Origin: Candidatus Kaiserbacteria bacterium CG10_big_fil_rev_8_21_14_0_10_59_10
Lineage (GTDB): Bacteria > Patescibacteriota > Minisyncoccia > Phycocordibacterales > UBA2100
Direction of reading: 5' to 3'
Assembly: GCA_002773285.1 (NCBI GenBank)
Contig: PFBM01000014.1
Location: 1 to 48,208 of the forward strand
DNA: 48,208 bases
Below, in pieces: positions 7,836-44,007 of the stretch. Each line of letters opens with the position of its first letter. Position 1 is the stretch's first letter. The position numbers were made by a program, and so were the translations under genes. The notes under the pieces were generated by a model. It was given only the letters and a program-made list of their open reading frames with translations. It was not told the DNA's origin and made no database searches.

Positions 7836-8507
7836 ATGGCTTACAGGCGCGTTCCCTTCCAAGTGGACGAGTGGTTCCATTGCTATAATCGCGGGATCGA
7901 CAAACGCACAGTGTTCGAATCAGAGGATGACTCTGAGAGATTTCTACAACTGCTGTATCTCGCAAATTCGGAGGAGAAACTACACCTTGCCGACATCTCT
8001 CTTACAACCGATGAGATTATGTGGCATGAGCGGGGCGCACCGCTTGTGTCAGTTGGTGCGTACTGTCTTATGCCAAACCACTTCCACCTAATGCTAAAGG
8101 AAATCCGCGAGAACGGCATTACCCAATTTATGCGAAAACTCGGGACTGCCTACACTATGTATTTTAACCTTCGGCATGAACGCACAGGCAACCTTTTTTT
8201 GAAACCGTTCCGTTCCCGACATGTCGACTCAGACAGGTACTTCCAGCACGTGGTCAATTACATACACTGCAATCCGGCCGAGAGAATCGACGCTGGTTGG
8301 AAGGAAGGTAGGATAAACAGTATGAACAGATTGGAGCGTGAATTGCGAGCATATCGCTATTCGAGTTTTCCTGACTACGTAGGTAACAGGCGACCGATAT
8401 CTGCGATTTTATCTGATGATGTCCGCGAGACGTATCGTCATGTTCCTGCTCGCAAAATGCTCAAAGAAGCGCACGCATACTACCGCGACCTAACCTTCGC
8501 ACTGTAG
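7836..8507 (+). CDS. REP-associated tyrosine transposase (RAYT; Y1_Tnp/IS200-like)
   Basis: MAYRRVPFQVDEWFHCYNRGIDKRTVF...VGAYCLMPNHFHLMLKE...GNLFLKPFRSRHVDSDRYFQHVVNYIHCNPAE: HUH motif (HFH) and RAYT signature. Start taken at MAYRRV. Confidence 0.92.
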   Translation: MAYRRVPFQVDEWFHCYNRGIDKRTVFESEDDSERFLQLLYLANSEEKLHLADISLTTDEIMWHERGAPLVSVGAYCLMPNHFHLMLKEIRENGITQFMRKLGTAYTMYFNLRHERTGNLFLKPFRSRHVDSDRYFQHVVNYIHCNPAERIDAGWKEGRINSMNRLERELRAYRYSSFPDYVGNRRPISAILSDDVRETYRHVPARKMLKEAHAYYRDLTFAL

Positions 8508-39915: not shown

Positions 39916-39956
39916 AACGCAGCAGTATAGCCGTTTTCATCCCTCGGCGCACGCCC

Positions 39957-40079
39957 CCACACTAACCCGGCATAATTTCTACGCTGCATTGTAGCCCGCC
40001 ATAAAAAACGGTGGCGTTGTGGAAAAATTGCGTACGTGAATCTGAAAAATCATACCGTGATGCCAGGGTTAGTGTGGAG
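39957..40079. mobile_element. MITE-like non-autonomous insertion with ~17-bp terminal inverted repeats and 8-bp direct repeat (GCACGCCC)
   Basis: Left TIR CCACACTAACCCGGCAT (39957-39973), right TIR ATGCCAGGGTTAGTGTGG (40060-40077, one extra A). Direct repeats GCACGCCC at 39949-39956 and 40080-40087. Confidence 0.6.
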
Positions 40080-41129
40080 GCACGCCCGTATGTCATCGCA
40101 ATATGCTTGCACATACTCATCAAGCGACGCGTACGGATACCGCTTGAGCTCGCCGCGGCACGGCCCTTCCTTGAGCCACTCGCGAAGCGCATCCACGAAC
40201 CCCTCCTCCGTCGTAACGATAGCGCCGGCCTCGCGGGCAACGCCAACGTCCGTGGAAAGCACCGGCGTGCCGGCAGCAAGCGCCTCTATGATGACGAGTC
40301 CATACCCTTCATAGTGCGATGTGACGAGCACAAGATCCGCCAGTTTGTAGTACGACGCCGGATCCCCCTCCCCCTCGAAGAATATTCGATCGTCGCATGC
40401 GCATTCCTTTGCAAAGGACTGCAGCAGCGATCGCTCACTTCCCTCGCCTACAATGATAAGGCACGCATCCCTTGGGGCTACCCGTGCGAAGGCGCTTACA
40501 GCAAGCTTCACGTTTTTCTCCGGCTCGAGGCGCGAAACGACGAGCAATTTCGTCTTGAACGCCGAGAATCGCGCCTTGAGTGCGGCATCCGACGGCGCGC
40601 TGCGATAGCGGGCGACATCAACGTATATCGGGAGAACGGCGGGTACGGCCCGCTGCCCATAGCCCGTAGCTTGCAGCGAGCGTGCGATACGCTCGCTCAC
40701 GACGCGGATACGGGTAGCACGAGCAAGAACATGGGGCATAACGAGAGTCCTGATACGGTTCAGAAAGGAGCGGCGAAATTGCGCCGCAAACGGGTCCGTA
40801 TGCAGTTGCACATGAAGCGGCTTGCCGCGGCGCGCAAGGAGACCGACTAATCCGGATTCGAACGGATCCTGGACGGTCACGACATCGGCTGGCAGGCGGC
40901 GCGCGATGCGCGCAGCGTCAAGAACATATAATGTTTTCAAACGTGAGTTGGTCGGATACAGGTGAAGAGGGCCTGCGTGCACTGTTGCAAGAGCATGCGA
41001 GCGCAACGAAAATACCACCACGTGCATTTCGCCGAATGTTTCCGCATAGCGCGCCGCGCGTACGCGTGCGGCGCTTCCTTCCCGAAACAATGCCCTATCG
41101 GAACCGATAGAAAGCACACGCATAGTCAT
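40050..41129 (-). CDS. Glycosyltransferase family 4-like
   Basis: DVVTVQDPFESGLVGLLARRGKPLHVQLHTDPFA...LLVVSRLEPEKNVKLAVSAFARV...DLVLVTSHYEGYGLVIIEALAAGTPVLSTDVG. 3' end lies inside the MITE-like element. Confidence 0.93.
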   Translation of the reverse strand: MTMRVLSIGSDRALFREGSAARVRAARYAETFGEMHVVVFSLRSHALATVHAGPLHLYPTNSRLKTLYVLDAARIARRLPADVVTVQDPFESGLVGLLARRGKPLHVQLHTDPFAAQFRRSFLNRIRTLVMPHVLARATRIRVVSERIARSLQATGYGQRAVPAVLPIYVDVARYRSAPSDAALKARFSAFKTKLLVVSRLEPEKNVKLAVSAFARVAPRDACLIIVGEGSERSLLQSFAKECACDDRIFFEGEGDPASYYKLADLVLVTSHYEGYGLVIIEALAAGTPVLSTDVGVAREAGAIVTTEEGFVDALREWLKEGPCRGELKRYPYASLDEYVQAYCDDIRACLHTNPGITV

Positions 41130-42130
41130 GTGCGCCTAAGCGCGGTGCATATTTCCCGTGCCATGTCTTCCCATGAGTGTTCGAAGGAGAACGCCCGGCA
41201 GGCGCCCTGCAGTTTTGCGTACACTCCCGGCTCGAGCATCCTCTCCACGGCACCCTCCAGTTCTTTCTCTGAGCGCATGTCGATGAATATCCCGCACTCG
41301 CCCAAGCGCTCCTTCGTGCCGGTGTCCCGCGCCATGATGAACGGTTTCCCGCGCGCCACCGCCTCTATCGCCGTATTCGAACATATCTCGCTGAAGGCCG
41401 GCAGTATGACGGCGTACGATCTCTCCAAGCGCTTCAGGTGCTCGGAATACGGAAGCGCGCGGGCATCGAGCGAAACGCCGCTGTGCTTTGCTGCTATGCG
41501 CGCGACCACTCGCTCGACCATGCCGGCATTCTTGAGGAACATATCTCTGCCCGCGCTCACGAACACAATTCCGTCGGGAGCGCGCTGAGCCGCCTTCGGC
41601 GGATAATAGTTTTCCAGTAGGTGTACTCGGGAATCGGAAAATTCATAGGCGTCCCGCCATACTTCCCGCTGGAAACGCGTCGTAAAGAAGAGGGCATCCG
41701 CGCCTCGCACGAGGGAGCGTATGCCGCGGAACGTACACCGTTCCCGTATCGTGAACCTCCTCTTCGCCGAATAAAACTCAGAGAGCAGTATCGGCTCTCT
41801 CGTCCGCTCCACATATATTTCCCACAAAAAATCTCCCCCGATGCGCACCGCGAAACGTTTCCTGCATAGGCGTGCAGCGACAAAAGCGGGAAAACCGACA
41901 CTCCATGTATCAAGCGCGAATACGACATCGCTTCGCAACACTCGTGGAATGATGCGTATCCCATACATAAGATGCCGCAACCCAGACGGAAGCATTCTCT
42001 CCAGTGCATTACGCTCGACAAGGTCGACCGTATGCCCTGCCGATTCAAGCCCGCCCGTAAGGCCCCGCGCGTAAACGCTTAGTGCTTCTATCGACCTATC
42101 CGTAAAGGGTGTCGCGACGAGGAACCTCAT
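41126..42130 (-). CDS. Glycosyltransferase family 4-like
   Basis: MRFLVATPFTDRSIEALSVYARGLTGGLESAGHTVDLVERN...AVILPAFSEICSNTAIEAVARGKPFIMARDTG. Confidence 0.88.
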   Translation of the reverse strand: MRFLVATPFTDRSIEALSVYARGLTGGLESAGHTVDLVERNALERMLPSGLRHLMYGIRIIPRVLRSDVVFALDTWSVGFPAFVAARLCRKRFAVRIGGDFLWEIYVERTREPILLSEFYSAKRRFTIRERCTFRGIRSLVRGADALFFTTRFQREVWRDAYEFSDSRVHLLENYYPPKAAQRAPDGIVFVSAGRDMFLKNAGMVERVVARIAAKHSGVSLDARALPYSEHLKRLERSYAVILPAFSEICSNTAIEAVARGKPFIMARDTGTKERLGECGIFIDMRSEKELEGAVERMLEPGVYAKLQGACRAFSFEHSWEDMAREICTALRRT

Positions 42131-42168
42131 TATTGAATACTCTAGCGCAGGGTGAAATGAATAGCGAG

Positions 42169-42190
42169 GAGGCGCCCGAAGGGGCGCCTC
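42169..42190 (-). terminator. GC-rich hairpin downstream of the 62-aa ORF (possible terminator, weak T-tract)
   Basis: GAGGCGCCC-GAAG-GGGCGCCTC: perfect 9-bp stem. Confidence 0.5.
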
Positions 42191-42209
42191 AACACGTATG
42201 GCGTGGCGT

Positions 42210-42398
42210 TCACCGAAACGCCGCGTGGATAACTCGGTGGGACCCGTCAACATCCACGCTTTGGATCGCGCGCTCAGCGCGCGATGGCCCTTCGTGTACG
42301 ACGAGGCGATTAGGTAAGGTCATAGATCGCCAAACCGCGACCTGGAGACCAAGCATCGCCTCTATCCAACGCCAATAAGCAACCTGGAACTCCAACAT
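42210..42398 (-). CDS. Small Trp-rich protein of unknown function (62 aa)
   Basis: MLEFQVAYWRWIEAMLGLQVAVWRSMTLPNRLVVHEGPSRAERAIQSVDVDGSHRVIHAAFR; strong Shine-Dalgarno AGAAAGGAGG just upstream of the ATG; hairpin 20 nt after the stop. Confidence 0.6.
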   Translation of the reverse strand: MLEFQVAYWRWIEAMLGLQVAVWRSMTLPNRLVVHEGPSRAERAIQSVDVDGSHRVIHAAFR

Positions 42399-42478
42399 GG
42401 AGGTTCCTCCTTTCTGTGCTTGCGGTTGCGCTGCCTTCAGCTAACACCCTTGCGACCGATTCTCCAAGGGCACTTATC

Positions 42479-42795
42479 CCCGCACACTTAACCTCCTATT
42501 GCAAACTAAAAGATAAGCGTTCCATCAGAAATCTTCTTGCGTTGCCCCGTAACTTCAGTGCCTTCTCTCGTCGCACGGCGTCACGTTCGTCTCTATACGC
42601 TTCGTAATAAAGCAGTGTAAAGGGGCGCCGAAAGGCCGTTGAGAAACTTTCTCCATTGTTGTGTTTTTTCAGTCTGCGCCTCAAATCATTCGTCCTGCCG
42701 ATATACAGTCGGGAGTCACGCTCGCTCCCAAGAACATAGACGTAATACATGGCACAAGTATGCGATTCGAGGCGATAGGAGGTTAAGTGTGCGGG
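42479..42795. mobile_element. GIY-YIG gene unit bounded by 21-bp perfect inverted repeats
   Basis: CCCGCACACTTAACCTCCTAT (42479-42499) and ATAGGAGGTTAAGTGTGCGGG (42775-42795). Direct repeat TTATCCCCGC at 42474-42483 and 42796-42805. Confidence 0.6.
42496..42750 (-). CDS. GIY-YIG nuclease family protein (UPF0213/YhbQ-like)
   Basis: MYYVYVLGSERDSRLYIGRTNDLRRRLKKHNNGESFSTAFRRPFTLLYYEAYRDERDAVRREKALK. Confidence 0.95.
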   Translation of the reverse strand: MYYVYVLGSERDSRLYIGRTNDLRRRLKKHNNGESFSTAFRRPFTLLYYEAYRDERDAVRREKALKLRGNARRFLMERLSFSLQ

Positions 42796-44007
42796 TTATC
42801 CCCGCCCGAAAAGCGGCACGAACACCTTCTCGTGCATGTCTTTCGCAACGAGGTCCCAGTCGTATTTTTCGACGACCATTGCCTTCGCCGTAGCGACGAC
42901 TGCCCGCACTTTCTCCGGATGCGCCGTGATGTCTTTTACCGCTTCGGCTATCTGCTCCGGCGAATCCTTGTCTACCGCCCAGCCCGTCACGGGCTTGTCG
43001 GGGTCGCGTGTCTGGTCGAAAAGAAAGTCCGCAATGCCGCCCTCTTGCGTCGCAATGACGGGGAGGCCTGCGGCCATCGCCTCCACGAACGAATTCCCCA
43101 TTCCCTCCGAGCGGCTCGGGCGCGTAAAAATGTCGCACGCCTTGAGATACTTCGGCAATTCATCGTGCTCTATTTGCCCGAGAAATTGGACACGCTTTTG
43201 CAGCCCGTGGCTTGTAACCAACAACTTGAGCTCTTTTTCCAGAGGGCCGGTGCCGAGAATGATAAAGTGCACATTCTCCGATAGCAGGGGCAATGCGCGT
43301 ATCACGTCATCGAGCGCGTTTTTATGCACAAGGCGCGACGTGGTGATTATGAATACGTCCCCCATCTTTTTGCCGAGGCGGTCTTTTATCTCGTCTATCG
43401 CGCGCGCTGGATACTCTTGCGAAAAGTGCGCCACATTGACGGCATTCGGGACGAGGACGGGCTTACCGGGAAATCCACGCCTCTTCGCCCAACGTCCGAG
43501 GAAGGTGGAGATGGCCGACACCGCATCGGCCGACGTAAAGGCGCTCTTAAAGAGCGGCCAAAGCGGCAGCATCCTGCGCTCGATATACTCCGGGGGATCA
43601 CCCTCTTGGAGCTCAAGCACGTAGGACACGCGCGGATGGAAGAGCTTGAAAAGCGCCGCCGGCACGCCGCAGGAGTGCGCCATCATCGCCCATATGCAGT
43701 CATAGCGGTGCTTCCGGTGCAGCCGCAGGGCTTTCCACGCGGCGAGGAACTGGAAGAGCAGCTTATTGAGATGCAGCGGCCAGCGACGCAACTCTGCCAT
43801 AGAGGGGCTCGGCCGCGCGATACCAATGCGGTGGACGAGTACGTTGCCGATCTGCTCGACCGTCGGCAGGGTGGAATCGAAACGATTCGTCACCATGTGG
43901 AACTCTATGTCCGGCATTCTGTCGGTCTTTTCTTTTATCGCCACTTCCGCACCCCCGACATGCTTTGGGTAGTACGCGAGCGAGAAAATAAGTACTTTTC
44001 TTTTCAT
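42796..44007 (-). CDS. Glycosyltransferase family 4-like
   Basis: VLIFSLAYYPKHVGGAEVAIKEKTDRM...DIFTRPSRSEGMGNSFVEAMAAGLPVIATQEGGIADFL. Confidence 0.93.
   Translation of the reverse strand: MKRKVLIFSLAYYPKHVGGAEVAIKEKTDRMPDIEFHMVTNRFDSTLPTVEQIGNVLVHRIGIARPSPSMAELRRWPLHLNKLLFQFLAAWKALRLHRKHRYDCIWAMMAHSCGVPAALFKLFHPRVSYVLELQEGDPPEYIERRMLPLWPLFKSAFTSADAVSAISTFLGRWAKRRGFPGKPVLVPNAVNVAHFSQEYPARAIDEIKDRLGKKMGDVFIITTSRLVHKNALDDVIRALPLLSENVHFIILGTGPLEKELKLLVTSHGLQKRVQFLGQIEHDELPKYLKACDIFTRPSRSEGMGNSFVEAMAAGLPVIATQEGGIADFLFDQTRDPDKPVTGWAVDKDSPEQIAEAVKDITAHPEKVRAVVATAKAMVVEKYDWDLVAKDMHEKVFVPLFGRG

Follow-up and report, generated by a model that had tools for sequence, protein, structure and literature searches.

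GIY-YIG genes bounded by terminal inverted repeats form a putative family of very small transposon-like elements in Patescibacteria

The window analysed here is a whole contig of 48,208 bases from a genome of 759,674 bases (~760 kb). On its minus strand, the TAA stop of a glycosyltransferase gene is followed directly by CCCGCACACTTAACCTCCTAT, a 24-base spacer, a GIY-YIG ORF and the reverse-complement arm (Table 1). The sequence-only reading had described perfect 21-bp inverted repeats that enclose just this ORF and take in its stop at one end, and both points are borne out: on the forward strand, CCCGCACACTTAACCTCCTAT at 42479-42499 and ATAGGAGGTTAAGTGTGCGGG at 42775-42795 form perfect 21-bp inverted repeats, and the 84-aa ORF ends on a TAG inside one arm. 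The direct repeat TTATCCCCGC reported for both ends is also present, with TTATC (GATAA on the minus strand) as the part strictly beyond the arms, and its outer copy does hold the glycosyltransferase stop, the TAA of ORF 42796-44007. The proposed end of the unit at 42805 needs correction, as it lies 5 bases too far; with both repeats included, the unit spans 42474-42800. The arm pair is unique in the 759,674-base genome, in a search allowing up to 3 mismatches. A second GIY-YIG copy in the same genome has arms ACCCCCACACCGATATTTTCAT and an ORF 57% identical to that of the window. Adjoining the right end of this second element is a partial left end, ACCCCCACACCGA (locus L033, G000:C14), as if two insertions had taken place side by side. 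The window also holds a gene-less relative of the element, flanked by CACG on both sides (39950-39953 and 40081-40084), which lies at the 3' end of another glycosyltransferase gene (40050-41129, minus) and covers its stop codon. At 8046-8267 there is an IS200/RAYT-like Y1_Tnp match (PF01797), and two more are found in the same genome.

Table 1 Coordinates of the GIY-YIG element and related features in the window.
Feature	Position	Strand	Details
Whole element	42479..42795	minus	317 bp, termini CCC...GGG
TIR 5' of ORF (left arm in gene orientation)	42775..42795	minus	CCCGCACACTTAACCTCCTAT on minus
TIR 3' of ORF	42479..42499	minus	ATAGGAGGTTAAGTGTGCGGG on minus; includes the TAG stop of the ORF
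GIY-YIG nuclease ORF	42496..42750	minus	84 aa, single domain, no further domain
Target duplication copy 1, GATAA	42796..42800	minus	holds the glycosyltransferase stop codon
Target duplication copy 2, GATAA	42474..42478	minus	orthologous loci have one site only
Glycosyltransferase gene, insertion at its stop codon	42796..44007	minus	PF00534, 8.5e-37
MITE-like gene-less relative	39954..40080	.	127 bp; ends CCCCCACACTAACCC... ...GGGTTAGTGTGGAGG
Joined empty site of the window locus			GGGCGGGGATAAGTGCCC

The GIY-YIG fold of the encoded protein is settled by Pfam and PDB sequence matches. PF01541 matches residues 1-71 of the 84-aa ORF (E=1.6e-17), and the nearest solved structures by sequence are the UPF0213 proteins 1zg2 (E 5e-13) and 1ywl (E 7e-10), whose likeness spans the whole domain. 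Like the window protein, these are single-domain proteins of comparable size; they were deposited as hypothetical proteins in records without an assigned function, and are not described as TIR-bounded. The structure-specific nuclease SLX1 comes next, with a weak match in the GIY-YIG core, but is a larger, cellular repair enzyme. Close homologues with names come from Candidatus Kaiserbacteria and other Patescibacteria. Among TIR-bearing copies, the catalytic residues are almost invariant (Y5, Y16 and R26 in 99/99, H30 in 98/99 and E62 in 97/99). With dN of 0.04-0.20 against dS of 0.9-2.1, well below it, the gene is, judging from these substitution rates, under purifying selection.

Homologues of the GIY-YIG gene occur in 56 of 60 related genomes, at up to 9 copies per genome, and in 170 of 240 genomes drawn from across the phylum, at up to 15 copies. 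Flanking repeats were scored at 117 homologous loci from Patescibacteria, sampled via similarity to a few queries; for the arm score, the 75 bases 5' of the ORF were compared with the region around its stop, and the best inverted repeat without gaps was taken. In 59% of the loci, the score was 12 or more. The corresponding figure was 1.2% when each upstream flank was paired with the downstream flank of another locus, and 1.1% for 355 other ORFs in those loci. The window element itself scores 21. The sequence-only reading had proposed looking for flanking repeats around homologous genes, and had named as refutation either homologues without repeats or repeats that serve as ordinary terminators. 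The first check gives a clear positive, 59% against about 1%, and neither refuting outcome was seen, with gene-less copies being MITE-like and bearing target duplications. No TIR was detected around ~40% of homologues, and the presence of TIRs is clustered on the tree (25 changes, compared to 63.6 when shuffled), so that some GIY-YIG clades may not be mobile, or their ends may have escaped detection.

Arm sequences vary between elements, even inside one genome, while the two arms of each element match. Pairing extends over 20 positions and falls sharply at position 20. The inner arm positions show almost no sequence conservation across elements, yet are 58-77% paired, and the reason for these matched inner arms is not explained. 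Arm distance correlates with protein distance (Mantel r 0.47, shuffled maximum 0.12), with a flank control giving r 0.0007. The correlation shows joint inheritance of the arms and gene of each unit. By itself, it does not show that the arms are recognised by the protein, and since it is expected from linkage alone, we do not use it as proof of recognition.

Orthologues of the window glycosyltransferase are found within the genus, with up to 80% identity over the last 89 residues, and none of the 19 orthologous loci examined has a GIY-YIG gene at this position. When the element is removed from the window and one GATAA retained, the sequence aligns straight across the junction with nine orthologues, including the downstream stretch at GGGTGTTTGCTGA, and a lone GGATAA-like site lies at the junction in six of these nine uninterrupted orthologues. 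Empty sites of the kind that the sequence-only reading had suggested searching for are thus found at the predicted place. Other junctions are filled in one genome and empty in another: that between hisS and an exonuclease gene is filled in L053 and empty in L054, with proteins 88% identical, and that between pheS and pheT is filled in L083 and empty in L085 and L098. Within the genus, these two junctions (L053-L112) are highly variable: the inserted material differs and ranges in length from 1 base to more than 1 kb. The pheS match in the genome of the window (G000:C17:1918-2339) is in two pieces, covering residues 1-110 and 125-150, perhaps due to a frameshift or an assembly error. The stretch 3' of the glycosyltransferase stop (~42400-42478, around GGGTGTTTGCTGA) is conserved in relatives, at loci L281, L283, L287, L292, L293 and L295, and is perhaps the leader of the downstream unit.

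Target duplications were counted for 89 elements, taking the CCC...GGG core as the element boundary. An exact 4-bp direct repeat adjoins the core in 20 of them (compared to 2.4 on average and at most 9 in 2000 shuffles), the repeats being TATG (10 cases), TTGA, TGTG, TGAA, TACA, TAAA, TTTA and ATGA. With an offset allowed, the count rises to 37/89, compared to a shuffle mean of 7.1 and a maximum of 15 (300 shuffles). In the GIY-YIG elements, target sites are used in a single orientation: we see TATG and never CATA. A co-oriented ORF starts no more than 12 bases from the right end in 47/85 elements, with the mirror case in 4/85. As these non-palindromic sites are used one way, the element lies mostly co-oriented with host genes. 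Intergenic insertions at start codons read TATG, CCC...GGG, TATG, and with a start or stop codon as the target, the duplication provides a second copy of the codon and neither neighbouring gene is lost. In two start-codon duplications, in genes that we take from their protein sequences to be glmS (L013) and zwf (L005), the downstream gene uses the right copy, and the old upstream context stays with the left one. Three elements of one subtype (L009, L013 and L020) have 71-74% DNA identity, near-exact common arms and a TATG duplication, in unrelated flanks. No clear target duplication was seen for the CCCTGTTAAATA subtype, the ends of which are well conserved, nor for most insertions in rRNA and RNase P genes. 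TIR-bearing copies also occur in MAGs labelled Planctomycetota (L200, L240), Desulfobacterales (L199, L215) and Proteobacteria (L237), although this spread beyond Patescibacteria is provisional because MAG labels and contig placement can err.

Gene-less copies of 68-143 bp have common ends and target duplications. For one subtype, a left-end motif search gave internally deleted, gene-free copies of ~76-142 bp (L262, L264, L266). In genome G016, the window end motif CCCSCACACTWA, with 1 mismatch, has 54 forward and 44 reverse matches, whereas the reversed control gives 9 and 10. These ends form 32 TIR pairs, of which 31 are short and gene-less, mostly ~135 or ~74 bp; the remaining pair, at 291 bp, is a GIY-YIG element and the sole gene-sized unit. 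Exact duplications flank 22 of the 34 such MITEs examined, 4 bp long in 15 cases and 5 bp long in 7 (shuffle means ~1.0 and ~0.5, respectively). Arms of 21-25 bp are seen in 32 of the 34, and two (L349, L356) are flanked by GATAA, as is the window element. The 68-143 bp copies satisfy the criteria for MITEs, having TIRs, duplications, no gene and many copies. At one locus (L362 and L398, G135:C24:46623-47090), a 133-bp MITE and a GIY-YIG element with similar ends are ~42 bp apart.

TIRs, duplications, empty sites, different genomic locations and gene-less derivatives are demonstrated by these data. Based on the TIRs, duplications, varied sites and gene-less copies, we have little doubt that this is a genuine transposon-like family of mobile elements, with autonomous-type and MITE-type members. 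The sequence-only reading had raised a homing- or transposition-like unit driven by the nuclease, or a passenger mobilised in trans; a transposition-like unit agrees better with unrelated sites, target duplications and empty loci than a homing-like one does. Our main reading, to which we give a probability of roughly 0.6, is that the family is an undescribed one of very small DNA transposons, representing a new class, with the GIY-YIG protein as the mobilising enzyme. That last role is inferred from its being the sole gene between the ends, with catalytic residues kept and under apparent purifying selection. No other gene was found between such ends, in an analysis that did not include a genome-wide DDE search.

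It is also possible, though in our view unlikely, that a MITE-like unit owes its movement to an unrelated transposase in trans and that the GIY-YIG gene is mere cargo, serving in repair, anti-phage defence or the cutting of rivals. Gene-less MITEs with the same ends are common, which fits such an arrangement, as does the lack of any known strand-transfer activity for the GIY-YIG domain. In G016, furthermore, the abundant MITEs mostly have CCCGCACACTTA ends, whereas the single TIR-bounded GIY-YIG element has CCCCCACACTAA, so no autonomous element matching these MITEs exactly was found in that genome. Against cargo status, only the 291-bp GIY-YIG copy among the 32 TIR pairs in G016 carries a gene, and no transposase was found near the longer or unpaired ends there, where the ORFs encode a trypsin-like protease, a PaaX-type protein, a glycosyltransferase, a HAD hydrolase and similar proteins. 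The pairing of the gene with TIRs also recurs across several bacterial phyla, if the provisional MAG labels hold. As not all DDE families were covered genome-wide, mobilisation in trans by a transposase remains possible. Whether the GIY-YIG protein drives movement or is carried along is therefore undecided, with the data leaning towards the former.

A different explanation is suggested by insertions in structured RNA genes. Elements lie inside 16S rRNA (L012, L014, L044), 23S rRNA (L018) and RNase P RNA (L127, where alignment places the right arm in helix P3); L173 adjoins the same RNase P sequence with a weaker match, and L041 is directly 5' of a tRNA. In these rRNA, RNase P RNA and tRNA-side insertions, the arms can extend a host helix. 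The arms might then form an RNA stem that encloses the gene and acts in regulation or processing, comparable to the RNase III-cut intervening sequences of rRNA, with mobility incidental; insertion in peripheral helices and the 20 positions that stay paired with near-absent inner conservation would agree with this. We consider it very improbable, as target duplications and MITE copies require movement at the DNA level, and isolated arm mismatches show no clear bias on the sense strand (15 G.U and 10 A.C). A regulatory RNA was likewise rejected as the identity of the element on the lack of a clear G.U bias and of any Rfam match at E<=1 in 41000-44000, and the structure criterion for a group I or II intron was not met.

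GIY-YIG homing enzymes are well known, and a free-standing endonuclease of this kind could be copied into cut alleles through flanking homology. Similar ORFs do occur in CPR rRNA insertions (PMC11270868), but many unrelated sites with unrelated flanks, and TIRs with short duplications, are not products of homing, and we regard this explanation as extremely improbable. A homing element was also rejected as an identity: the catalytic residues are present, but the copies do not share one homologous site (flank control r 0.0007). Finally, Y1 elements lack TIRs and do not duplicate their target, so the duplications seen here make it extremely doubtful that IS200/RAYT-like Y1 transposases move the MITE-type and GIY-YIG elements; Y1_Tnp genes are present in G000, G007, G009, G016 and G242, but G135 and G192 hold elements without any Y1 match. 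The element is not itself of IS200/IS605 or RAYT type, since it has TIRs and a duplication and no Y1 transposase.

If the GIY-YIG protein is the mobilising enzyme, the layout of the family would be ~20-bp TIRs starting with CCC, a 4-5 bp duplication, and the GIY-YIG gene in the position of a transposase. The protein would bind both TIRs, and cutting would take place at the CCC/GGG ends of the element. The target may then be cut with a stagger of 4-5 bases at short sites such as TATG, TGAA, TTGA or (G)ATAA, after which joining or host repair would leave the element between two target copies; this cut-and-join chemistry is an inference. We know of no GIY-YIG enzyme that joins DNA, which leaves the joining step unexplained, and no experiment yet supports this scheme. 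In its most complete form, it comprises a lone GIY-YIG transposase of ~84 residues in a unit of ~270-320 bp, staggered cuts at non-palindromic 4-5 base sites, insertion in a fixed orientation, start and stop codons duplicated with the neighbours left functional, and a supply of MITE families in ultra-small bacteria. For that entire set of claims we see the odds as evenly balanced. Were the lone transposase real, the total length would probably make this the smallest autonomous transposon.

DDE-type IS and their MITEs likewise combine ~20-bp TIRs, 4-5 bp duplications, autonomous-type and gene-less copies, and varied sites. Their criteria are met here for TIRs and short target duplication but not for a DDE transposase between the ends: the element is ~300 bp in total with only an 84-aa GIY-YIG domain, and differs further in its strong orientation bias to non-palindromic targets. 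Among the bacterial TIR elements described so far, those that make target duplications all rely, to our knowledge, on a DDE-type enzyme, or on Cas1 in the case of casposons. Penelope-like retroelements also use a GIY-YIG nuclease to open target sites for a mobile element (PMC3846280), but are eukaryotic and encode a reverse transcriptase, whereas the window element has no other gene. In the open-access PMC literature, we found no description of a TIR-bounded GIY-YIG family. The nearest report (PMC11270868) describes GIY-YIG ORFs in CPR rRNA insertions, treated as insertions outside introns, and the term "inverted repeats" does not occur in its text. Those insertions share protein family and phylum with the window element, and the 16S and 23S rRNA insertions noted above are probably of the same kind; rRNA insertions are a minority here, the GIY-YIG family sitting mostly between protein genes.

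If true, a lone GIY-YIG domain driving a TIR element would add to the known chemistries of transposition, and would give a role to small GIY-YIG proteins of unknown function. It would account for the unclassified GIY-YIG insertions in CPR rRNA genes, and at ~300 bp the element offers a very tractable test system. It would also mean that genomes regarded as stripped of mobile DNA do carry a mobile load.
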